Source: a virus. From it: DNA of 28,068 bases. The notes beneath the pieces were generated by a model. The model made no database searches. It saw nothing but the letters and a program-made list of their open reading frames with translations, and was not told the DNA's origin. The stretch lies in IMG/VR virus record IMGVR_UViG_3300042307_000959, positions 1 through 28,068 of that record, one strand, 5' to 3'. Below, piece by piece: positions 1,579 to 23,594 of this stretch; positions within the stretch are counted from its first letter, which is position 1, and every line of letters begins with the position of its first letter. Made by a program: the position numbers and the translations under genes.

Positions 1579-2457
1579 TCAAAATTTATTTTTTATATAA
1601 TCTATAATTTTTTCAGATATTAATTTTGAACCTCTTATAGAATTATGTCCATCAAAACTAACACCTTCGGTATCATCTGAAAACTTTGCTTTTCGTTCTG
1701 TACTAAACCAGTGTACCAAATCATAAGTTTCATCGAATTTTACAGAATATTTCAATATATCACTTTCTACTCGTTTAAATGATGCGAGTTTACCATATTT
1801 TGGATTTAAAAATTTTAATTGATGTATTCTATTCGTACTTTCTAACGAAGTTTGAATAAATGCATAATTTATATTTTTAGAATTTAAAAGGTTTATCAGT
1901 AAATATAGTTTTTGATATTCACTTACAATATCTGATTGGACATTAAATGATTTGTCATACCAATTTTGTATTAATTTAAAGTTTTCATTTTCAATAAAAT
2001 CAAAATTATTTTCACCTGCAAAATTACAATATCTATTTTGGTTTTCAAAATACATTTCACCTCTACCAGGAGGGGGTAATTCCAATATGAATAATGTAGA
2101 TTTTAATTCTTCATCAGATGTATTCATTATATGTGTTACCGTTTTACGCACCACTCTATGCAATGAACCACCAAATATTGAATCATTTATTACTGGTATT
2201 TCAAAAAAATCTCCAACTCTATTTACATAATTATATTTTTCTCTAACCCAATCAAATTCATTGAATGGTTCAAATACGTTTGGATTTGTAAATTGTGTAT
2301 TTTCTTTAAATTTGTCATGATGTTTACATTGTTCTAAAAAATAACTTATATCAATATCTTTTGTTTCTTCAAAATATTTAAAATACCACGGATTGTTATG
2401 ACCATGCCCCCACATAAAACTGCAACCATTTGCGTATATTTTACTAAATGAGGTCAT
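1579..2457 (-). CDS. SGNH/GDSL-like hydrolase
   Basis: A 292-residue protein whose N-terminus reads YANGCSFMWGHG (about residues 8-19). This is the phage version of the SGNH block I, with the presumed nucleophile Ser in GCSF. Near the C-terminus a D-G-H (in SFDGHNSIRG, about 268-277) fits the Asp-x-x-His or Asp-His of block V. SGNH enzymes are esterases or O-acetyltransferase-type hydrolases, often acting on acetyl groups of polysaccharides. The middle is not clearly alignable by eye. The start overlaps the stop of the upstream kinase gene as ATGA at 2454-2457. Three further SGNH-fold genes lie in this window. In a glycan island, a role in sugar deacylation or acyl modification is a reasonable inference, not a demonstration. 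Confidence 0.65.
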   Translation of the reverse strand: MTSFSKIYANGCSFMWGHGHNNPWYFKYFEETKDIDISYFLEQCKHHDKFKENTQFTNPNVFEPFNEFDWVREKYNYVNRVGDFFEIPVINDSIFGGSLHRVVRKTVTHIMNTSDEELKSTLFILELPPPGRGEMYFENQNRYCNFAGENNFDFIENENFKLIQNWYDKSFNVQSDIVSEYQKLYLLINLLNSKNINYAFIQTSLESTNRIHQLKFLNPKYGKLASFKRVESDILKYSVKFDETYDLVHWFSTERKAKFSDDTEGVSFDGHNSIRGSKLISEKIIDYIKNKF

Positions 2458-2900
2458 ACGATGTGTTTTATTAGATTTTTAAAAGTATCATCTACTGAAT
2501 ACGATGTATCTAAATTTATAAAAAATTCAATTGGTTTTTCGTAATCTAATGCGAAAAAATCCTCCCTACCTCTGATTTTTTTTGTGTGGCAATAAATTTC
2601 TTGTACTTTACACTCTGATTTAAGTTGTTCTCTCATTTCTCTATATGGAGAAACTAAACTAATCACAACATCATTGCCAGATTTATCCAAATATTTAGCA
2701 ATATCAAATGCCTTTTGAATATTCCTTTCTCTACCTTCTTTTGAATAATCTTTATTTGGAAATATTTCTCTTAACTGGTCACCATCTATGTGGAATACGG
2801 ATTTACGCCAATTTTTTTTATCGGTTTGTAACCATATTTGTAACTTTTTAGCCAATGTGGTTTTTCCACTTCCTGGTTGGCCGGTAAATAGATAAATCAT
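2454..2900 (-). CDS. APS kinase-like P-loop kinase
   Basis: A 148-residue P-loop kinase. Walker A is GQPGSGKTT (residues 7-15). HIDGDQLREIF (37-47) matches the DGDxxR substrate/Mg segment of adenylylsulfate kinase. RERNIQKAFDIAKYL (about 57-71) matches the conserved ENIRR helix, and VVISLVSPYREMR matches the SFISPYRxxR segment. APS kinase makes PAPS; family length is about 170-200, so this version is short. CysC homologues also occur in capsule clusters: Cj1415 of Campylobacter acts on cytidine diphosphoramidate. The partner here could therefore be a nucleotide-linked group rather than APS. It overlaps the HAD gene (ATGA at 2897-2900) and the SGNH gene. A split polynucleotide kinase (kinase plus HAD phosphatase, as joined in T4 Pnk) is a less likely reading, because the motifs are APS-kinase-type. 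Confidence 0.7.
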   Translation of the reverse strand: MIYLFTGQPGSGKTTLAKKLQIWLQTDKKNWRKSVFHIDGDQLREIFPNKDYSKEGRERNIQKAFDIAKYLDKSGNDVVISLVSPYREMREQLKSECKVQEIYCHTKKIRGREDFFALDYEKPIEFFINLDTSYSVDDTFKNLIKHIV

Positions 2901-3565
2901 AACTTATTAAATAATAACGATTTTAGTTTGTTTATATTTTCTTCTTTTGGTGGTGGAGGGGTATCATGTTTAACATGTCTAACCTTTAATGATATATTTG
3001 GATATTTTTTAGAAAGGGATTGAACTGCTGATATGTTTTTATGCGAGTCATCTATAAAAAATACATCGTTAACTCCACTTTTTATTTTATCTTCAATCCA
3101 GTCAGCTTTCTTTTTTGGGTCTGCATCTGCTAATGCAACTACATATATTCCGTTCAATCCAATATCAGCTAAATATCGTTTAATTGGCATATATGCACCT
3201 CTTGCGGTAAGTATTACTATTTCTGAACCACCTACTCTTACGATGTTTTTAAGTAATCTTGTAACACCTTTTATTTCTTGTGGTTGGTTTACTTTATCAA
3301 AATCAGAAAAATCAAATTTATCACCTTTTTTTGGTTCATATACCGCATATTCTCCAGGTGTTAATTTTGATTTTTTTCCAGTTTTATGTGTAATGTAAAT
3401 GTGAGAATTTGTTTGAACTAATGTATCATCAAAATCAAATACTCTTAATTTATCAGATTTAGCTTCACTTAATGAATTGAATGCAAATGCGTTTAAGTTG
3501 GAGTATACTTTTCCAAACTCAACCTTCATTCCATTCCACATTCCTGATGTAAAGTTATTAACCAT
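2897..3565 (-). CDS. HAD-superfamily phosphatase-like protein
   Basis: A 222-residue protein with the HAD signature in order: motif I DFDDTL (residues 44-49; nucleophile D44, acid/base D46), motif II LTARG (119-123), a Lys-rich segment DPKKKADW (about 149-156) for motif III, and motif IV FIDDSHKN (170-177). HAD enzymes with this pattern dephosphorylate small phosphoesters or nucleic-acid 3' ends. The insert between motifs I and II is long and contains YEPKKGDKFDFSDFD, which resembles phage HAD proteins. The first 40 residues are extra and of unknown role. The gene is coupled to the APS-kinase-like gene by ATGA. The pairing suggests a phosphate-handling step in sugar activation or, less likely, an RNA/DNA end-repair pair. 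Confidence 0.75.
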   Translation of the reverse strand: MVNNFTSGMWNGMKVEFGKVYSNLNAFAFNSLSEAKSDKLRVFDFDDTLVQTNSHIYITHKTGKKSKLTPGEYAVYEPKKGDKFDFSDFDKVNQPQEIKGVTRLLKNIVRVGGSEIVILTARGAYMPIKRYLADIGLNGIYVVALADADPKKKADWIEDKIKSGVNDVFFIDDSHKNISAVQSLSKKYPNISLKVRHVKHDTPPPPKEENINKLKSLLFNKL

Positions 3566-3880: not shown

Positions 3881-4288
3881 TTATTTTTTAGGGGGTTCAA
3901 TTGTACCGTCATTACCATCCATCGCATCGTGAACCGAATTCAATTGGTCTACTGCTAATGTGATTTGAGAATACATCCAAGAATCTAATTGCTGTCCTTC
4001 TGACATTCTTTGTAAAATCATATTTGCATAATCAGCAATTCTTTCCAAATCACCCATTGCCATTTCTTTCAATCCTGCCAATGTTTCTTCCGGTGAAGAA
4101 TTATCATCACCCTCTTGCATTTTGTGTTTAAGTAATTCAGTCATTTTGTTGAATACTTGCTCACCACCATTCTCTCCTAAACGATATGCTCCTCCTAATT
4201 TCTCATAAACTTTAATTTTATGAGACATTGGCATACTTTTTTCGTTTACAGCTTTCCAAGCTTTTGGATTAGTTACTTCAAATTTCAT
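3881..4288 (-). CDS. Phage protein with conserved helical C-terminal motif
   Basis: A 135-residue acidic, helical protein of unknown function. The C-terminal part (about residues 78-125) reads LERIADYANMILQRM ... WMYSQITLAVDQLNSVHDAMDG. Helical segments with this spacing (W-x-x-S-x-I-T-x-A-x-D-x-I-x-S-V) recur in many T4-type phage proteins, several of them virion or core components. A structural or virion-associated role is therefore possible, but this rests on remembered similarity. The N-terminus begins MKFEVTNPKAWKAVNEKSMP. It is coupled to the SGNH gene by ATGA at 4285-4288. It stands out as a phage-type gene inside the sugar cluster. Confidence 0.55.
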   Translation of the reverse strand: MKFEVTNPKAWKAVNEKSMPMSHKIKVYEKLGGAYRLGENGGEQVFNKMTELLKHKMQEGDDNSSPEETLAGLKEMAMGDLERIADYANMILQRMSEGQQLDSWMYSQITLAVDQLNSVHDAMDGNDGTIEPPKK

Positions 4289-4926
4289 ATTAAATTTAAT
4301 TGTATATACTGATATAAATATAAAAAAAATTCTTTATGCCCTTCTTTACCAAAATGTCTGTCATTATTTGTTTGCCACCATAATGAAGTTTTGTTACAAA
4401 CATCTATCCAACATTCCGCTTCAATAGGAGTTATATAATTTTTACTATGATTTTTAACCATTTTATTGAATATGGGTAATCCACACTTATCCATATTCCA
4501 AAAAAATACATTTGTGTATCTTTTTAAATTTTCTATTATAAAGTTATATTGTAATAATGCATTTTCTGTATATTGCATCATTTCATTTTTACTTGATAAT
4601 TTATGTTTATAAAACTCTATTTCACTTTCGTTAAATCCTTTTATATCATTATTTCTCAAATCAATACCTATATTTTTCCAAAAATCATATAATCTATCAT
4701 AAAAAGTAATTCCAATTATAACAATATCATCTTTATCTAAATTATCAATATTGTGATACATTTTATGCAAAATCCCATAATTTGATATTCCAGCAGATGC
4801 ATAAGATTGTAGTTCGTAATTTAATTTATTGGATAACAAAACCGGCCAAGATTCTTCTATTGATACTTCATCTATAGTTGAAAAATTAGTAGAAAATGAA
4901 TCACCAAATATGTATAAATTTTTCAT
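4285..4926 (-). CDS. SGNH/GDSL-like hydrolase
   Basis: A 213-residue protein, the usual length for a single SGNH domain. Block I is YIFGDSFSTNF (residues about 5-15) with a full GDS. ASAGISNYGI (about 43-52) supplies the block II Gly and N. Block V is NDRHFGKEGHKEFF (about 188-201), with Asp and His placed for the Asp-His part of the triad. The enzyme should be an active esterase or deacetylase; the substrate is unknown. The stop of the 2OG-oxygenase gene and this ATG share one base (TAATG at 4924-4928). The neighbours are sugar enzymes, so an acyl-sugar substrate is my inference. Confidence 0.75.
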   Translation of the reverse strand: MKNLYIFGDSFSTNFSTIDEVSIEESWPVLLSNKLNYELQSYASAGISNYGILHKMYHNIDNLDKDDIVIIGITFYDRLYDFWKNIGIDLRNNDIKGFNESEIEFYKHKLSSKNEMMQYTENALLQYNFIIENLKRYTNVFFWNMDKCGLPIFNKMVKNHSKNYITPIEAECWIDVCNKTSLWWQTNNDRHFGKEGHKEFFLYLYQYIQLNLI

Positions 4927-5654: not shown

Positions 5655-6541
5655 TTTATATTATTTATTTCTGTTTGAAATACTTCGTATGATTGTTTTT
5701 TAAATTCTTCTTTTCTATCAATTCTTTTTATTATAGAATCATAATGATTTCTATTTCTATAAATATAATTTTCACAAACAATATAGTTTTTTAATTTGAA
5801 TTGGTGTATGTTTACACCTGTTTGATTTAATTTTTCAATTCCCCACATTAGAAATGTATCATCAGGACCATAGGCTCCCATTGATTCTGGCAAAGGTATT
5901 CTATCTAATAGTGGTTTTGATAAAAGTGTAAACCATCCCGCTCCAAATTTTGTTTGTGGTTGGCCAGGTACATTATTAAAAACGGTTTCCAATGCAACAT
6001 CACCTACTTCACCACAATCTACAAACGGATTATTTGTTTTGCAATAATCCAATGGTTTATTTAAATAATTAGAATTTACTAAACAATCCCAAGTAGTATC
6101 CCAATACTTAACAATCTCTGGTGTAATAAAATATTTATCAACATTATCAATTACATCAATTGCGTTTTCCATATAAAATAATATTCGTTCATCAAAACAA
6201 ATATCAGTATCTAGCCAAATAAAATGAGTTGCATTTTTAGATTCTAAATGTGCGTATCGTTTGGTTTGAAGTGCACCGATAATTTCATCTCTAATCTGAT
6301 AGGTAGATTTACTAGCCCAATCAGTTAATGGTTTTAGTGAATTGAATCTATCTATAAAAAATTGCTTATCTACTTTAGAATTTTTCCAATCAAATAGATA
6401 ATCTGAAACTGAAAATGAAATATAAAATTCATAATTATTACCACTTATATGTTTGGATGCCTTATTCAAATCAATTAATACTCTTTCCAAATCATCCAAC
6501 TCATGTGGCATTACGAATGATGTAATAACTATTTTTTTCAT
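5651..6541 (-). CDS. GT-A fold glycosyltransferase (GT2-like)
   Basis: A 296-residue protein. The N-terminal strand KKIVITSFVM starts a nucleotide-binding fold. The key motif is HFIWLDTDICF (residues about 106-116) with a DxD (D111-T-D113) that binds the divalent metal and sugar nucleotide. GAGWFTLLSKPLLDRI (about 200-215) and MGAYGPDDTFLMWGI (about 221-235) resemble the acceptor-side and catalytic-acid segments of GT2/GT-A enzymes. There is no membrane segment, so it is probably cytoplasmic. ATGA junctions join it to its neighbours on both sides. The transferred sugar is not predictable. Confidence 0.75.
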   Translation of the reverse strand: MKKIVITSFVMPHELDDLERVLIDLNKASKHISGNNYEFYISFSVSDYLFDWKNSKVDKQFFIDRFNSLKPLTDWASKSTYQIRDEIIGALQTKRYAHLESKNATHFIWLDTDICFDERILFYMENAIDVIDNVDKYFITPEIVKYWDTTWDCLVNSNYLNKPLDYCKTNNPFVDCGEVGDVALETVFNNVPGQPQTKFGAGWFTLLSKPLLDRIPLPESMGAYGPDDTFLMWGIEKLNQTGVNIHQFKLKNYIVCENYIYRNRNHYDSIIKRIDRKEEFKKQSYEVFQTEINNIK

Positions 6542-7329
6542 TTATATTTGTTTTCTATTAACTTTTTAAGTTCTTCATTTCTATCATATTGATGAACTAA
6601 CGTGTATAATTCCCCTTTTAAATTTCTAACATCGCTTCCATCGATAGTTGGTAATTTTTCAGTATATGGTAGTATATCTCCCTTTTTTAATTTTAAATGC
6701 AACTGTGCAGCAAATCCTTCCTGTTGTTTTACAAATTGAACTTTATCTTTAAATTGATGTAAACGAATTAAAATATTATATGCCGCTTGGTCTGCCAATT
6801 GTTCCCTATTTGATGTGGTTAAACTCCATCTATAAATATCAATAAATAAGTCTCTAATAGCATCTTTCTTACCAACAATAGTTCCTGCACAACATATTTC
6901 TTCATTTTGTAACCAATCCCATTCCATAGGAAATGATGTACCTGCATTTAATCTTGCCCATTCTTCATCTCCAAATTTCAATGATTCCGAAAAAGCAAGA
7001 ATATCTTTATTCATGTTCTTATTTAACCATTCGGTTGGGTCTTTTTGGAATACAATATCCTTTACATCTACCCATATAATCACATCCGTTTCGTATTGAT
7101 GTAAAACCTGATACATATCTCTAAATCTTTGCAGTATGATATGTTGTTGCGGTTCCGATTGTATTAATTTCCAACCTTTAACATTAAGGTATTCTATTGT
7201 ATCTTGAGTAATTTCATAAACCAACATCAATTTATCTCCATTAAACCCACTACGTTCAATTGATTCAATAAATGGTCTAATTTGCTCTACTCCGTATTTA
7301 GTTATGCAACCTATTATTGTGTATTTCAT
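6538..7329 (-). CDS. GT-A type glycosyltransferase-like protein
   Basis: A 263-residue protein. MKYTIIGCITKYGVEQIRPF at the N-terminus resembles the start of GT-A domains. TDVIIWVDVKDIVFQKDP (residues about 81-98) carries a DxxD-type metal motif (D88, D91) after a hydrophobic strand and before an F-Q-x-D-P. The same arrangement occurs in galactosyl/mannosyltransferase-like (GMA12/MNN10-type) and phage sugar transferases. ICCAGTIVGKKDAIRDLF (about 144-161) and LADQAAYNIL (about 177-186) fit the acceptor side, with a D-Q pair. It overlaps the GDPD-like gene by 32 nt and the next transferase by ATGA. The donor and acceptor are unknown. Confidence 0.7.
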   Translation of the reverse strand: MKYTIIGCITKYGVEQIRPFIESIERSGFNGDKLMLVYEITQDTIEYLNVKGWKLIQSEPQQHIILQRFRDMYQVLHQYETDVIIWVDVKDIVFQKDPTEWLNKNMNKDILAFSESLKFGDEEWARLNAGTSFPMEWDWLQNEEICCAGTIVGKKDAIRDLFIDIYRWSLTTSNREQLADQAAYNILIRLHQFKDKVQFVKQQEGFAAQLHLKLKKGDILPYTEKLPTIDGSDVRNLKGELYTLVHQYDRNEELKKLIENKYK

Positions 7330-7759
7330 ATTCTTTTATATTATCTGTCATTATTGCGTAACATTTTGTAATGTCACCGATATATCCCATTTCAGGCATA
7401 CAACATATTGAATTTTGTATTAATTTTTCACCAGGTTTAACTAATACCCTTTTATTTGATATCAAAGTGTAATTATCAATTGTATGCCAAAAATAATTGA
7501 ATCCACCGATTGCGTTAAACCACTCCATTGCGTCTACATTCTTACAATGTATCCATAGGTGTTCGTATCTTTCGTTTAACCAATGTTGAGTTATACCATA
7601 TTGCGGTTCATCGTGTCCTAAAAATAAAACACCTTCAATCATCCATATATCTATTTCGACATCATAACCTAATGAAATTGCTTCATCTATATAATTAGGA
7701 TGATTCTCTCTTTCAATATTTCTACCGTTTATGTTTCCTCTATGTGCAATCCATTTCAT
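7298..7759 (-). CDS. Short GDPD/PI-PLC-like phosphodiesterase
   Basis: I start this at the ATG at 7757-7759; an upstream TTG at 7765 would add only two residues. The 153-residue product begins MKWIAHRGN, the H-R-G of glycerophosphodiester phosphodiesterases. E35 and D37 (VEIDIW) follow, then H49 (GHDEP). Those are the metal-binding and catalytic residues of the GDPD TIM barrel. Normal GDPDs are about 240-300 residues, so only the first half or so is recognisable, although no frameshift or stop is obvious. Short versions of this kind are, as I recall, found near sugar nucleotidyltransferases in polysaccharide loci. It could cleave or form a phosphodiester on a glycan precursor; that is inference. 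It follows the nucleotidyltransferase gene by 17 nt. Confidence 0.7.
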   Translation of the reverse strand: MKWIAHRGNINGRNIERENHPNYIDEAISLGYDVEIDIWMIEGVLFLGHDEPQYGITQHWLNERYEHLWIHCKNVDAMEWFNAIGGFNYFWHTIDNYTLISNKRVLVKPGEKLIQNSICCMPEMGYIGDITKCYAIMTDNIKEYEIHNNRLHN

Positions 7760-7776
7760 ACACAAATATACTAAAA

Positions 7777-8598
7777 TTATTTATATTTACCAAATTGTTC
7801 ATTGTAGTGTTTCCAATAATGATATGTCCAAATTAATTCATCTTGTGATTTTATACCACTTTTTAAAATAGTTTGCCAAGCTTCAAAATTTTGAACTTCT
7901 TCTGGAGTTCCAAATACACTAACATAATCAGTATCATAGATTGTAACATTCAATCCATCATTAACCATTAAATTGTAAACTAATGTTACATAATACTCAC
8001 CATTGTAGTTTATATCCAAATCCATCAATTGTTTGAAATACTTTTTAACATATTTACCTTTTGCAAAATAATATGTTCCAGTTGAAGCATGTTCTTCAAT
8101 TGGTTTATCTGTATATGGTTCTTTTTCTTTTATCTCAATCAATTTACCATTATCCTCTTTTATATGTGCCATAAAAGTTGGACTCAGTCTATGTGGATGA
8201 AACCCAACATGAGAAAGAATGCAACCATCTGAATTTTTAATTGATTGTTTGAAATCGTTATAATCCCAAAGGTATGGATTATCACAATAAGTGATTATAA
8301 CTTCTTCATCATCTTTTACATCTAAATTTTTTAAAGTATAAACTGGTCCTTTTTTGTGGTTTTGTATAATGTAAATTTCAGATTGTTTAACTAATTTATT
8401 CAATATTTCAACCATTTTGGTATTGTTGGCGTGTTCTTCATTTATTACAAATATAAACTCGTCATTTTCAATATCAAACATTTCAACAATATATTCTATA
8501 ATTAATTTTCCATTGACGTTTATTAATGGTTTTGGGTCTATGTATCCTGCTTTAACAAATCTATCCCCCATACCTGCCATTGGAACTATAATCTTCAT
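7777..8598 (-). CDS. Sugar-phosphate nucleotidyltransferase-like protein
   Basis: A 273-residue protein of the NTP_transferase type, which joins a sugar-1-phosphate or similar phosphate to NTP and releases pyrophosphate. IIVPMAGMGDRFVKAG (residues 3-18) is the nucleotide-binding glycine motif, and DPKPLINVNGK (21-31) supplies the conserved Lys. D106 in TYCDNPYL stands where the metal-binding Asp follows the sheet. Other family-like pieces are HKKGPVYTL (81-89) and EHASTGTYYF (about 169-178). Length fits single-domain cytidylyl-, guanylyl- or uridylyltransferases such as those in capsule loci. It overlaps the kinase-aldolase gene by ATGA (8595-8598), so the aldolase/kinase product is a natural candidate substrate. 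The nucleotide is not predictable. Confidence 0.8.
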   Translation of the reverse strand: MKIIVPMAGMGDRFVKAGYIDPKPLINVNGKLIIEYIVEMFDIENDEFIFVINEEHANNTKMVEILNKLVKQSEIYIIQNHKKGPVYTLKNLDVKDDEEVIITYCDNPYLWDYNDFKQSIKNSDGCILSHVGFHPHRLSPTFMAHIKEDNGKLIEIKEKEPYTDKPIEEHASTGTYYFAKGKYVKKYFKQLMDLDINYNGEYYVTLVYNLMVNDGLNVTIYDTDYVSVFGTPEEVQNFEAWQTILKSGIKSQDELIWTYHYWKHYNEQFGKYK

Positions 8599-10019
8599 TT
8601 TCTATATTTTTCTGATTTTAGATTGTTTAAATACTCAATGTCTTTATTTGATAATTTTTTAATTTTACCTAATTGTTTAGCGTAATATACAATATAATTA
8701 TGTGAGGCGAGTGTTTCGTTATCATTTATTATAACAGAATCTGGAAATGTAAATATATTTTCCTTTGGATATTCGGCCCAACTTAAATCAAATTCTTTAA
8801 ATTTTATTACATTTCTTTCAATATATTCCTTTGAATATGTATTAATTCTAGAAATTAAATCAATACATTTATAATAGTTATCATAGGAAACTATTAAACC
8901 GTGATTTTCTAAAAATACAACATTTGATATGCCATTCGTATTTAAAATTTTATGTGTTAATTCCAATCCTGGGTTATAGTATTTCAAATAAGTGTATTTG
9001 AAATCTTCATTTTGGAATAATTCATCTATAATATCTTTTCCATTTTCTAATGATAAGATACAATTCAAATATATTGGGTGTACATGAAACACATATTTAT
9101 CAAATAAACTATGAAACCCAGTTTCCATAGATGGTTTTTTATATAAAGAATTTTTGATTGATACCTCCAATATATCATCTAGCATATCATCATCTAATAT
9201 ATTATTAAAATCAATATTTTTATAATCTATAATAGAATAACCACTACCATACTTTATATTTTTTAATTTTCCACCACTTTCTTTTATTATTAATTTATCA
9301 CCAAATTTTGATGATATATTTCCTCCCTTTGATTGAACTACATTTAATCTATTTCCAATTGTTTGATTTATCCATTCAAATTCATACAATTCACGATGCA
9401 TTTTTTTAATAAACTCAAATAACATACAATCTACATCGGAATTATATGTTACATTAATACCATCCATTTTGCTAATTTTGATTATAACATCAGCTTTTTT
9501 AATTTGTATGGATTTAATATGTTCAAAATCTTTTTTTCGCTTGGATATTAGTTCTACTACTTTTTCTTTCGTATATCCTCTTTCATTTGTATCTCTTTCA
9601 ACTTTAAAATCTGTTATTAGATTTTCATCAGTATCAATGTATATTTTTAAATCTGTTAATAATTGGGATTCATTTGTGTAAAATGAATGTAATCCTTCAT
9701 TTATAACATATTTTTTTGGTGAAATATAGATTGGTTCGTTAAATTTTCCAGTTGAATGATTGTATATTTTTCTTAATATTTTTTCTCCATTCTTGAGTGA
9801 TATCAAATGTGAATCACCCAATTTTAAATTATTTGCAGATGGATTTAAATGTGTAATGGAATTCCACATAATATGGTTTCTTTCCCATTTATGCAAATCA
9901 TCTCCTGAAATGGATACAGTATTACCATATCCATAATATAATCTTATGAAATTTGCAATAGTAGATTTCCCAGAAGCAGAATCACCGGATATACCAATGA
10001 TATATGGGTTATCTTCCAT
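8595..10019 (-). CDS. Fused uridine kinase/PRK-like and class II aldolase protein
   Basis: I start this at the ATG at 10017-10019 rather than a TTG at 10064, because the ATG directly precedes the P-loop domain. The product is 474 residues. The N-terminal domain (about 1-200) has Walker A GDSASGKST (12-20), SGDD (38-41) and RDTNERGYTKEKV (about 142-154), as in uridine kinase/phosphoribulokinase. The C-terminal domain (about 210-430) has KGGNISSKF (about 231-239) and LIIKESGGKL, then PSMET (296-300), H312 and H314 in HVHP, and H373 in LENHGL. These give the class II aldolase Zn site with its usual HxH plus H. The fold order and motifs are clear. Aldolase chemistry cleaves or joins a phosphorylated ketose; the kinase would phosphorylate a sugar or polyol. 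It overlaps the upstream transferase by 11 nt and the nucleotidyltransferase by ATGA. Confidence 0.85.
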   Translation of the reverse strand: MEDNPYIIGISGDSASGKSTIANFIRLYYGYGNTVSISGDDLHKWERNHIMWNSITHLNPSANNLKLGDSHLISLKNGEKILRKIYNHSTGKFNEPIYISPKKYVINEGLHSFYTNESQLLTDLKIYIDTDENLITDFKVERDTNERGYTKEKVVELISKRKKDFEHIKSIQIKKADVIIKISKMDGINVTYNSDVDCMLFEFIKKMHRELYEFEWINQTIGNRLNVVQSKGGNISSKFGDKLIIKESGGKLKNIKYGSGYSIIDYKNIDFNNILDDDMLDDILEVSIKNSLYKKPSMETGFHSLFDKYVFHVHPIYLNCILSLENGKDIIDELFQNEDFKYTYLKYYNPGLELTHKILNTNGISNVVFLENHGLIVSYDNYYKCIDLISRINTYSKEYIERNVIKFKEFDLSWAEYPKENIFTFPDSVIINDNETLASHNYIVYYAKQLGKIKKLSNKDIEYLNNLKSEKYRK

Positions 10020-13361: not shown

Positions 13362-14354
13362 TTATTTTTTCCAAAATGAATAAATTCCATTATCTAATTC
13401 ATACGACGGCCATACAAATCTATCTCTTTTCGGTTGGTGTGAAGCCCAAACCCACATATCCCACAATCCTTCATCTAAATTAGTTTTATGTTCAAACCCC
13501 AATATATCAATTGATTTTTGGAAGGTAGGTATTGAGTTTTTAACCTCATGTCTACCTTCTTTATAAACAACTTCACCACTACCTATAATTGCTCTTAATA
13601 ATGAATTTGCTTTGTTTATACTCCACTCTTCTACTCCACCTAAATTAATTATTTCTTTGGATGCTTCAGGTCTAATTGCCGAATTCCATAAAGGTTCTAC
13701 AATATCATCTACACAACTAAATGCTCTAGTTTGTTCTCCATCACCAAATATTGTCATTGGTTCTCCATTTAGATGTTGATACATCCAAATACCCAATACA
13801 TTACGATACTTATCCCATATATTTTGGTTAATACCATATACATTATGTGGTCTGATAATACACCAATCTAATCCATGTTGTTCACCTGCAATTTGAATAT
13901 CCATTTCACACGCATATTTCGCAACTCCATACGGGTCGATTGGTTTAGGTGTGTGTGTTTCATCAAATACGCCACCTTCTCCATGTCCATACACTGCTAA
14001 TGTTGAAGTGAATACCAATCGTTTAACATTGTGTTTAATACATTGATTGACTACTCTTGCAGTTGCAACTAAATTGTTTTCATAATTATATTGTCTAATG
14101 AATGGTGATAGTCCTTCCGCTGCGTATGCTGCAAAATGAAATACATAATCAAATTTGTGAATTTCAAAACAATTTTCAATTGGGTGTGTTACCAAATTCA
14201 TTTGCCAAAATTCTACGGTTGGATTTACATTTTCTCTATATCCACCACTTAAATCATCAATTCCAACTATATGAACTTCGGGATGTTTTTCAGTTAACCA
14301 ATCTGCTAATCTACTACCTAATAGCCCTGCTACTCCTGTTATTAAAACTTTCAT
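13362..14354 (-). CDS. UDP-glucose 4-epimerase-like SDR enzyme
   Basis: A 330-residue extended short-chain dehydrogenase. The NAD-binding motif GVAGLLG is at residues 7-13 and ends with the acidic turn GIDDLSGG (31-38). The catalytic residues are visible: S117/T118 in FTSTLAVYG and the Y142-x-x-x-K146 pair in PYGVAKYACE. IIRPHNVYG (about 167-175), GDGEQTRAFSCVDD (about 204-217) and NLGG also fit the NAD-sugar epimerase/dehydratase family. It would interconvert or dehydrate a UDP- or GDP-sugar in the cytoplasm; the closest call is a GalE-like 4-epimerase. Alternatives are GDP-mannose or UDP-GlcNAc epimerases. Its start lies inside the end of the CgeB-like gene by 41 nt. Confidence 0.8.
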   Translation of the reverse strand: MKVLITGVAGLLGSRLADWLTEKHPEVHIVGIDDLSGGYRENVNPTVEFWQMNLVTHPIENCFEIHKFDYVFHFAAYAAEGLSPFIRQYNYENNLVATARVVNQCIKHNVKRLVFTSTLAVYGHGEGGVFDETHTPKPIDPYGVAKYACEMDIQIAGEQHGLDWCIIRPHNVYGINQNIWDKYRNVLGIWMYQHLNGEPMTIFGDGEQTRAFSCVDDIVEPLWNSAIRPEASKEIINLGGVEEWSINKANSLLRAIIGSGEVVYKEGRHEVKNSIPTFQKSIDILGFEHKTNLDEGLWDMWVWASHQPKRDRFVWPSYELDNGIYSFWKK

Positions 14355-16136: not shown

Positions 16137-16793
16137 TTATTTATTTAAATATTTTAATATATCATTTGCCAATTCCTTATAACCTACTTCACCATAATGC
16201 CCATCTCTAACTACATTAGCAGTTTCTTTACTCATATCGGTATAGTTTACAACCGGAAATGATAACTTCAAATTTTGTTTACCACCTATATTTTCATTAC
16301 ACCAACTCCAATGGATAACTTTTACATCTTTTAAGTTTGCCCAATCATTTATAAATGTAATCCATTGATTAACTTCTTGCTCATAGAAATGTTGTAAATC
16401 ACACCTATTATAAATCAATTGCTCCGCTACTTCCTTTGTTATATATGTTCCATCTACACACTCATATTCAGGAAGATTCGATAACCCTACAGACCAGATT
16501 GTTTTCCATCCGTGTTTAGATGCTACTCTGTATCTAGCTATAACTGTCCATCCAAAAATTAGGATATCACCTGATTGAATGTTTTGTAATTCTGAAAGGA
16601 ATTTGTGAAATATTCCACAATTGGAACTTCCACTAACTCCCATATTTTTTACACTAAACCCGTATTCTTCTGCTACAAATGTAGCAGTATCCTTTGCATC
16701 TCTACCCAACCATTGTTTGTAAGGACTGGGGTCATTAGAGGTGCCATTTATAGGTGCTGTCATTGAATCACCGAAAGACCATACTCTGTTCAT
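16137..16793 (-). CDS. SGNH/GDSL hydrolase
   Basis: A 218-residue single-domain SGNH protein. Block I is WSFGDSMTAP (residues 5-14) with intact GDS. GVSGSSNCGIFHKFL (about 54-68) carries the Gly and the Asn of block II/III. GDILIFGWT (about 75-83) follows, and RDGHYGEVGYKELAND (about 197-212) holds the D-x-H of block V. All four catalytic elements are present, so an active esterase or lipase-like hydrolase is expected. ATGA couples it to the upstream 157-residue gene (16790-16793). An acetylated glycan or lipid acceptor is the inferred substrate. This is the best-conserved of the four SGNH-fold proteins here. Confidence 0.8.
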   Translation of the reverse strand: MNRVWSFGDSMTAPINGTSNDPSPYKQWLGRDAKDTATFVAEEYGFSVKNMGVSGSSNCGIFHKFLSELQNIQSGDILIFGWTVIARYRVASKHGWKTIWSVGLSNLPEYECVDGTYITKEVAEQLIYNRCDLQHFYEQEVNQWITFINDWANLKDVKVIHWSWCNENIGGKQNLKLSFPVVNYTDMSKETANVVRDGHYGEVGYKELANDILKYLNK

Positions 16794-22847: not shown

Positions 22848-23594
22848 TTACATTTCAAAATTATTTTCAAAATATGTTAATAATTTTTTAGCATATAATT
22901 CATTTTGAATTGAATTTGCGTATTTGTTATTATCTATGAAACACGGGTATTCTCCATCAAATCTATTTTCATCCATATATTTAGTTTTAACAAATGTTCC
23001 ATTCCAAATAAATGGTATCTGTTTATTTTTTAAATAATTTGATATTAATAAATGATTTTTATACCAATTAATGTAATCTTCTTCATTTGACGTGGATGAT
23101 ATTATATTAGACCATAATTTTCTACCATCCAAATCTTCGTTTAAGTACCCCCAAGGAATTGGATGATACGGTTCTAAATTACCTGCGTCTGTATATATTT
23201 CTCGTTTCGTTGGATATGTATACATAATTAATACGATAGCCGGATTCAAATACTCTGTCCATGTTAGGACACTTCTAGCTATGTAATCATTACTTCCACC
23301 ACTTATCCCTAAATTAAAATCTACTCCATTTGGAAGCATTCTAGTTAAATGATGTGACCATGTTTCTCTATCATTTACATCGATTCCTTCGGTGTGGCCG
23401 CACCCCACACTCATAATTTTTAATCCTTTTTTTTTTACAGAATCACCTCTAAACCCCAACTCATTAAAAGTATAATAGCAGTTACCAGGATCGGTTGCAT
23501 TTCCTAATATTTCTTTATTAATTCGTTCTTTTAATCGCCATTTATATGTAGCAAAATCGAACTCATCAGTATTCCAAAATTTTAAACTTTCCAT
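22848..23594 (-). CDS. Degenerate SGNH-fold protein
   Basis: A 248-residue protein with SGNH-family features but altered active-site residues. NELGFRGDS (about residues 44-52) is often seen before block I. Block I itself reads SVGCGHTEGIDV, with Gly where the catalytic Ser of GCSHT is expected. NLGISGGSNDYI (about 98-109) keeps the block II and III style of Gly and Asn. The C-terminal region has DNNKYANSI in place of the D-x-x-H motif. The nucleophile and the His therefore both appear to be lost. It may bind a ligand without hydrolysing it, or use other residues. It lies 2 nt after the polymerase gene, which is unusual company for this fold. Confidence 0.6.
   Translation of the reverse strand: MESLKFWNTDEFDFATYKWRLKERINKEILGNATDPGNCYYTFNELGFRGDSVKKKGLKIMSVGCGHTEGIDVNDRETWSHHLTRMLPNGVDFNLGISGGSNDYIARSVLTWTEYLNPAIVLIMYTYPTKREIYTDAGNLEPYHPIPWGYLNEDLDGRKLWSNIISSTSNEEDYINWYKNHLLISNYLKNKQIPFIWNGTFVKTKYMDENRFDGEYPCFIDNNKYANSIQNELYAKKLLTYFENNFEM

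Follow-up and report, generated by a model that had tools for sequence, protein, structure and literature searches.

Introduction

In the nucleoside diphosphate (NDP)-heptose pathways (HldE/HddA, GmhB, HddC), a kinase produces a bisphosphate, a HAD phosphatase converts it into a 1-phosphate, and a nucleotidyltransferase acts next. In the haloarchaeal non-carboxylating pentose bisphosphate pathway, a HAD-type ribulose-1,5-bisphosphate (RuBP) phosphatase is paired with a FucA-type ribulose-1-phosphate (Ru1P) aldolase, and the two are encoded in one operon (PMC9700705). Here we describe a gene in which a kinase similar to phosphoribulokinase (PRK) is fused to a class II aldolase. It lies in the IMG/VR virus record IMGVR_UViG_3300042307_000959, of which the analysed stretch of 28,068 nucleotides (positions 1 to 28,068) is referred to as the window.

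We favour, with some reserve, the reading that this two-headed enzyme arose by compaction, specific to phages, of a bacterial sugar-activation cassette, in which kinase, HAD phosphatase, aldolase, and NTP-transferase would act in this order. The proposed system shares the kinase-phosphatase-nucleotidyltransferase order with the NDP-heptose pathways, using other enzyme folds; it differs from them in its kinase fold and in having an aldolase. The haloarchaeal pathway, in contrast, is catabolic and obtains RuBP from ribose-1,5-bisphosphate, and the steps listed in its published account include neither PRK nor a nucleotidyltransferase (PMC9700705). The domain families are known already. No description of the architecture or of the cassette was found in a narrow search of the open-licence literature. 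As a 'Rosetta stone' protein, the fusion links the PRK-like kinase and the class II aldolase as partners, and by way of 44 viral and 74 bacterial loci it points to a conserved gene cassette.

Architecture and fold of the fusion protein

The original prediction, made from the DNA letters, described a uridine kinase/PRK-like domain and a class II aldolase in one protein, with the motifs of both. Translation gives a single frame with zero internal stops (Table 1), and all of the quoted motifs are located in it. The Walker A motif GDSASGKST occupies residues 12–20 and RDTNERGYT residues 142–150 of the kinase half, while GGNISSKF (232–239), PSMET (296–300), HVHP (312–315), and NHG (372–374) lie in the aldolase half. 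The start codon is the one predicted originally; an alternative longer frame of 489 residues opens at TTG 10064. Both domains exceed their Pfam cut-offs, PRK with E 1.5e-34 (120 bits, cut-off 22) and Aldolase_II (PF00596) with E 1.7e-9 (38.3 bits, cut-off 22.2). After the aldolase domain, a conserved tail reaches residue 474.

An AlphaFold2 model of the whole protein, built from an alignment of 27 sequences with the window's own among them, predicts both folds with a mean predicted local distance difference test (pLDDT) score of 93.1 and a predicted TM-score (pTM) of 0.89. In structure comparison, the N-terminal part matches the PRK structure 9qko (Z 25.4, 199 residues, 2.0 Å). The C-terminal part matches the class II aldolase 3m4r (Z 19.9, 188 residues, 2.2 Å), and also FucA 2opi (Z 18.7) and the E. 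coli FucA mutant 1e4c (Z 15.8). The list of structure matches consists mostly of kinase chains, and the absence of other aldolase families from it is no evidence. Structure prediction, which had been put forward as a check, thus finds the expected fold in each half, and the possibility that one half lacks its fold is ruled out. Together, frame, domains, and model show that the fusion is a real architecture, predicted to be bifunctional, and most active-site positions of each half appear to be retained. In the viral structure library BFVD, the top match of the model is A0A2H4UUW4, a class II aldolase of Bodo saltans virus, a giant virus.

Recurrence of the fusion in viral sequences

Viral contigs were scanned with only two kinase domains as queries, those of the window and of the E. 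coli plasmid NZ_CP145712.1, which yielded 44 loci. These include two further IMG/VR contigs that hold the fusion protein at 100% identity. Kinase and aldolase share one frame in 38/44 loci. As for the other six, L008 and L033 are truncated at the end of the available sequence, the kinase stands alone in L028, unfused loci of the bacterial type are found at L045 and L049, and in L046 the halves lie in two frames. Clustering at 90% identity sorts the 32 distinct fusion proteins of at least 400 residues into 24 groups. The window's fusion is 35–72% identical to representatives of the other groups, and L010, at 58%, is among its closer relatives. The fusion is widespread in uncultured phages, and these scans found it in viral sequences alone. 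When the phage and plasmid collections were searched with the fusion, none of the matching records (0/1 and 0/34, respectively) covered 80% of it at a single place.

The recurrence that the original prediction named as support is borne out here. The same fusion recurs in other phages with diverged sequences, and a nucleotidyltransferase gene is next downstream in 36 of the 37 fused loci with complete frames (37/38; the frame of L036 is cut). In a tree with bacterial cassette kinases, the phage kinase domains (n=35) form one group with a support of 0.94; the phage aldolase domains (n=33) do so with respect to bacterial cassette aldolases, with a support of 0.997. Each domain thus gives one phage group, but neither tree contains a PRK or FucA outgroup, so that a single fusion event is likely, not proven.

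That two genes were joined by error, or that one half is degenerate, has a probability next to nil in our judgement. Broken versions do exist, as the separate frames of L046 indicate. However, the one-frame fusions come from contigs of many different records, the main active-site residues are kept in 32/32 distinct proteins, and each domain makes one tree group. An assembly or sequencing artefact is ruled out by the identical copies in two contigs together with the diverged phages that carry the fusion. In L028, the unfused kinase gene (5980–6666) is followed by NTP-transferase and GDPD-like genes.

Active-site residues of the two halves

The profile of the fusion matches PRKs with E 9.8e-53 and the best uridine-cytidine kinase with E 1.9e-19. 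NCBIfam udk (TIGR00235) reaches 81.2 bits, under its cut-off of 220.3. The PRK-like part of the predicted label therefore holds, whereas the uridine kinase reading is ruled out by the profile scores. A kinase of the PRK type makes a sugar-phosphate substrate likelier than a nucleoside. In the archaeal PRK 5B3F, the residues reported to bind ribulose-5-phosphate (Ru5P) or ATP are His55, Arg59, Tyr98, His100, Lys151, and Arg154 (PMC5241800). They align with H43, R47, Y86, H88, K139, and R142 of the fusion, which are identical in 32/32 distinct fusions. The kinase half resembles PRK (9qko, 5B3F) in its fold and these six residues, and differs from it in comprising only ~190 N-terminal residues and in the attached aldolase.

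The phosphate site of FucA consists of Asn29, Thr43, Gly44, Ser71, and Ser72, with Glu73 as the catalytic residue and Tyr113' contributed by the next subunit (PMC11841055). The counterparts of Asn29, Gly44, Ser71, and Glu73 in the fusion are N234, G249, S297, and E299, again identical in 32/32 proteins. Three histidines, which we take to be FucA's zinc ligands, align with H312, H314, and H373 in all 32 fusions. The likeness to FucA/RhaD-type class II aldolases (3m4r, 2opi, 1e4c) covers the fold, the zinc triad, and these four residues. In contrast to them, the fusion carries a kinase and has a C-terminal tail in common with the bacterial cassette aldolase.

The bacterial cassette

A scan of a genome collection with ten kinase domains, seven from phage fusions and three unfused, found 74 bacterial loci in Proteobacteria, Bacteroidetes, Nitrospira, Acidobacteria, Planctomycetes, and other groups, as judged by record titles. 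The cassette is made up of an NTP-transferase, GtrA, a family 2 glycosyltransferase (GT2), a GDPD-like protein, a membrane-anchored kinase, a HAD phosphatase, and a class II aldolase. Counted by clusters, and with some contigs being short, the aldolase is a neighbour in 66 of the 74 loci, the HAD and the NTP-transferase in 65 each, the GDPD-like protein and GT2 in 60 each, and GtrA in 39. The identities of GtrA and GT2 were confirmed by Pfam in one locus, L086.

Kinase and aldolase are encoded in one frame in 0/74 of these loci. Recurrence in capsule loci, also named by the original prediction as possible support, is seen for the parts only: they are found, unfused, in bacterial glycan-type cassettes. 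Because the parts stand separately in a conserved cassette throughout the 74 loci, the fusion looks like a compaction specific to phages.

Compared with the window, the cassette of plasmid NZ_CP145712.1 has a homologous kinase (38%), aldolase (27%), and NTP-transferase (39%), together with a probably homologous N-terminal part of the GDPD-like protein. It differs in that its kinase lies C-terminal to a hydrophobic domain and is unfused to the aldolase, and in that HAD, GtrA, and GT2 are present. The C-terminal half of the phage protein aligns with the bacterial cassette aldolase over 262 columns, the shared tail included (E 1.3e-35). The plasmid NTP-transferase is a tandem protein. The phage NTP-transferase beside the fusion is a better match to its first half (38%; 38.6% identity for that of the window), and a second phage NTP-transferase, examined in two loci, is a better match to its second half (34–36%). 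For the plasmid HAD, the top NCBIfam match is the haloarchaeal ribulose-1,5-bisphosphate 5-phosphatase, with 168 bits against a cut-off of 330. In the plasmid annotation, the kinase is a 'uridine kinase', the aldolase a 'class II aldolase/adducin family protein', the HAD a 'HAD family hydrolase', and the last cassette gene a 'hypothetical protein'.

The bacterial kinase usually forms the C-terminal end of a ~690-residue protein whose N-terminal part is hydrophobic. In L086 (7825–9900) and other loci, a hydrophobic domain of 360–390 residues precedes the PRK-like kinase, which makes a second unusual architecture; in L086, this domain has a weak, sub-threshold match to ALG3. At L004:3481–12443, the cassette is carried by an IncR-type plasmid from E. 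coli. It was found in 2/5426 complete E. coli genomes, both times on plasmids.

Neighbouring genes in the phages

Kinase, aldolase, NTP-transferase, and GDPD-like genes lie together at positions 7298–10019 of the window, as in the bacterial cassette (Table 1). The start of the window's NTP-transferase overlaps the fusion stop by 4 bases. In 36/37 complete fused frames, the NTP-transferase frame starts −91 to +64 bases from the fusion stop, mostly with this 4-base overlap. The exception is L030, where it lies upstream of the fusion with a small HAD gene between them.

Table 1. Features of the window at and near the kinase-aldolase fusion gene.
Feature	Position	Strand	Size and evidence
Kinase-aldolase fusion gene	8595..10019	−	474 residues + stop, ATG 10019; translation, Pfam, structure model
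N-terminal PRK-like kinase domain, residues 7–182	9474..10001	−	Pfam PRK, PDB profile, fold match
C-terminal class II aldolase domain, residues 224–394	8838..9350	−	Pfam Aldolase_II, cassette-aldolase profile match
NTP-transferase, sugar nucleotidyltransferase type	7777..8598	−	273 residues; profile hits 4evw and GlmU (PDB), phrog_3980
Small GDPD-like protein	7298..7765	−	155 residues; alignments, weak GDPD profile/fold hits, phrog_34507
NAD-dependent epimerase/dehydratase	13362..14354	−	Pfam Epimerase E 6.4e-42

A GDPD-like gene is located at most 2.5 kb downstream of the fusion in 35/37 loci by an automated count. In L030, it directly follows the fusion and overlaps its end, hence falling outside this count, and none is present in L031 within its 5.1 kb. 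The small protein of the window retains the HRG..EN, ExD, and GHD motifs. A firm GDPD label was not adopted, as the profile and Foldseek matches are weak and the phage and bacterial forms align in their N-terminal parts only.

The HAD proteins that recur in the phages vary in form. A small HAD of ~100 residues stands beside the NTP-transferase in 21/44 phage loci. In L010 (7419–8783), the gene immediately after the kinase-aldolase fusion joins a beta-phosphoglucomutase-like HAD to an NTP-transferase, and this NTP-transferase is about equally distant from both phage kinds. The window's own record shows no such HAD-NTP-transferase fusion, no HAD was found beside its kinase-aldolase fusion, and its HAD-like gene at 2897–3565 is of another type than the cassette HADs. 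The architecture seen in L010 also occurs in Synechococcus phage S-CAM9 (Pfam), and a DSL-LC03 protein matches it in length and in the position of its NTP-transferase. The epimerase/dehydratase cluster has a member in 22/44 phage loci, and the gene of the window is a possible partner in the same glycan island.

Among the records of the phage collection, relatives of the window's NTP-transferase occur in 19, of which 18 are Synechococcus phages, and those of its GDPD-like protein in 16, all Synechococcus phages; several genomes are counted twice (GenBank and RefSeq). In the cyanophages S-SM2 and Bellamy (Kyanoviridae), one glycan island holds a tandem NTP-transferase, a glycosyltransferase 61, a class II aldolase, a small HAD, and a GDPD-like gene. 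The island resembles our system in keeping NTP-transferases, class II aldolase, small HAD, and GDPD-like genes together. It differs in that its aldolase stands alone and its kinases are a PfkB kinase (S-SM2) or a GHMP kinase (Bellamy). In cyanophage SynMITS9220M01 (L128:4989–6146 and L129:3776–4933), an NTP-transferase is fused to a LacAB/RpiB-type sugar-phosphate isomerase domain (Pfam), and Bellamy has a protein of this length with the NTP-transferase at the same place; both are annotated 'phosphatase'. Such a fusion would be in keeping with pentose-phosphate chemistry around these NTP-transferases. T4 Gp23 capsid protein was found in 4/22 records examined, that of the window not among them, and genes for a phage DNA polymerase and a clamp loader are present in the window; the carriers are therefore at least partly T4-like phages.

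Proposed chemistry

We propose that the PRK-like head would phosphorylate the C1 hydroxyl of a ketose phosphate, giving a bisphosphate. A pentulose-5-phosphate, D-ribulose-5-phosphate, is the best single guess for its substrate. A HAD phosphatase would then take the terminal phosphate off, leaving a ketose-1-phosphate, so that a phosphatase step may lie between the two half-reactions of the fusion. In most bacterial loci and roughly half of those in phages, the cassette gene would supply this phosphatase; in the lineage of the window it would come from the host or from another gene of the phage. On the ketose-1-phosphate, the zinc aldolase head would use enediolate chemistry, either to release dihydroxyacetone phosphate (DHAP) and a small aldehyde or to re-make another ketose-1-phosphate. 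The NTP-transferase would activate the product as an NDP derivative for the neighbouring glycosyltransferases, and a phosphodiester step is the simplest guess for the GDPD-like protein. The PRK and FucA residues, the RuBP-phosphatase-like HAD, and the haloarchaeal operon together suggest a route from Ru5P through RuBP to Ru1P, followed by aldol chemistry, with the NTP-transferase drawing off the product.

More tentatively, and with a probability that we place on the low side, bacteria and T4-like phages might have in common a pathway, so far undescribed, that leads from Ru5P to a nucleotide-activated ketose or to a unit derived from one. Its parts would be a PRK-type kinase, a HAD phosphatase, a class II aldolase, paired nucleotidyltransferases, and a GDPD-like enzyme, and the phages would have compressed the first and third steps into a single chain. 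If so, the activated ketose would give glycans a building block that does not come from the known aldose-1-phosphate routes, and a new kind of sugar nucleotide would be expected in environmental bacteria, some plant-associated species, and phages. The phage protein of 474 residues has no counterpart of the bacterial kinase's hydrophobic domain and, together with the NTP-transferase, makes the pathway directly testable.

Weighing the alternatives

Several observations weigh against this proposal. The kinase half scores 187.2 bits with NCBIfam PRK07429, under the cut-off of 236, and is therefore named PRK-like rather than PRK; as the score of the RuBP phosphatase model is also below its cut-off, Ru5P and RuBP are only hints at the substrates. 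The PRK residue Arg62 is lost in the fusions, although it varies among PRKs (PMC5241800). On the aldolase side, Thr43 of FucA is replaced by Ser and Ser72 by Met in 32/32 fusions, and the alignment assigns no counterpart to Tyr113', for which another Tyr may serve. No aldolase match occurs in the 108-kb phage record of L028. No PRK match was found among the S-SM2 and Bellamy island genes examined; a tblastn search with the fusion found no PRK in these phages either, but it also missed their aldolases. Since S-SM2 and Bellamy keep the other genes, the kinase may be dispensable or replaced. The small-type phage HAD was found in 0/13 records (the window's and 12 others, all fragments) by a search that had no positive control record. 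In the window's record, which is a fragment, there is no second NTP-transferase, and blastp found no relative of the plasmid HAD among its proteins.

The aldolase head may instead work in the building direction, joining DHAP and an aldehyde into a ketose-1-phosphate, after which the kinase head would phosphorylate the product or an isomer. This is close to the idea of the original prediction, and we regard it as unlikely, though a serious candidate. Of the residues of a DHAP-type aldolase, the fusions keep the zinc ligands, Glu73, and most of the phosphate site, and the haloarchaeal Ru1P aldolase was assayed condensing DHAP with glycolaldehyde (PMC9700705). However, the bacterial gene order kinase-HAD-aldolase, weak evidence as gene order is, and the RuBP-phosphatase-like HAD fit a kinase-first route better. 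It is also conceivable, at a rather low probability, that no net aldol reaction takes place in the C-terminal domain and that the same enediolate serves to epimerise a pentulose phosphate at C4 or to dehydrate it ahead of activation; the fusion would then alter the stereochemistry or the oxidation pattern of this substrate. The mechanism and fold of class II aldolases are also those of the epimerase AraD (PMC5434028), and the fold matches include YgbL, a putative aldolase/epimerase/decarboxylase. In the fusions, however, the catalytic position, which presumably corresponds to that of Asp76 in AraD, is Glu as in FucA in 32/32 proteins. Asp76 is the catalytic residue of AraD (PMC5434028).

We think it improbable that the fusion is an auxiliary metabolic gene, unrelated to glycans, which diverts host pentose phosphates or nucleosides to energy or nucleotide supply. 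PRK and uridine kinase do have a common fold, and phages often carry pentose-phosphate genes. Against this stand the recurrent neighbours, namely the NTP-transferase, the GDPD-like protein, glycosyltransferases, and sugar epimerases. The bacterial relatives, moreover, sit with GtrA and GT2 genes, also in Pseudomonas, Yersinia, and Erwinia, which as a rule, to our knowledge, have no Calvin cycle.

Other genes in the window

Four short proteins of the window (1579–2457, 4285–4926, 16137–16793, and 22848–23594) have N-termini that look by eye like those of GDSL/SGNH hydrolases; Pfam gives no family above its cut-off for them. At 2454–3565, an APS-kinase-like gene adjoins a HAD-like gene that falls into a polynucleotide kinase PHROG, and the two are possibly a split end-repair pair.

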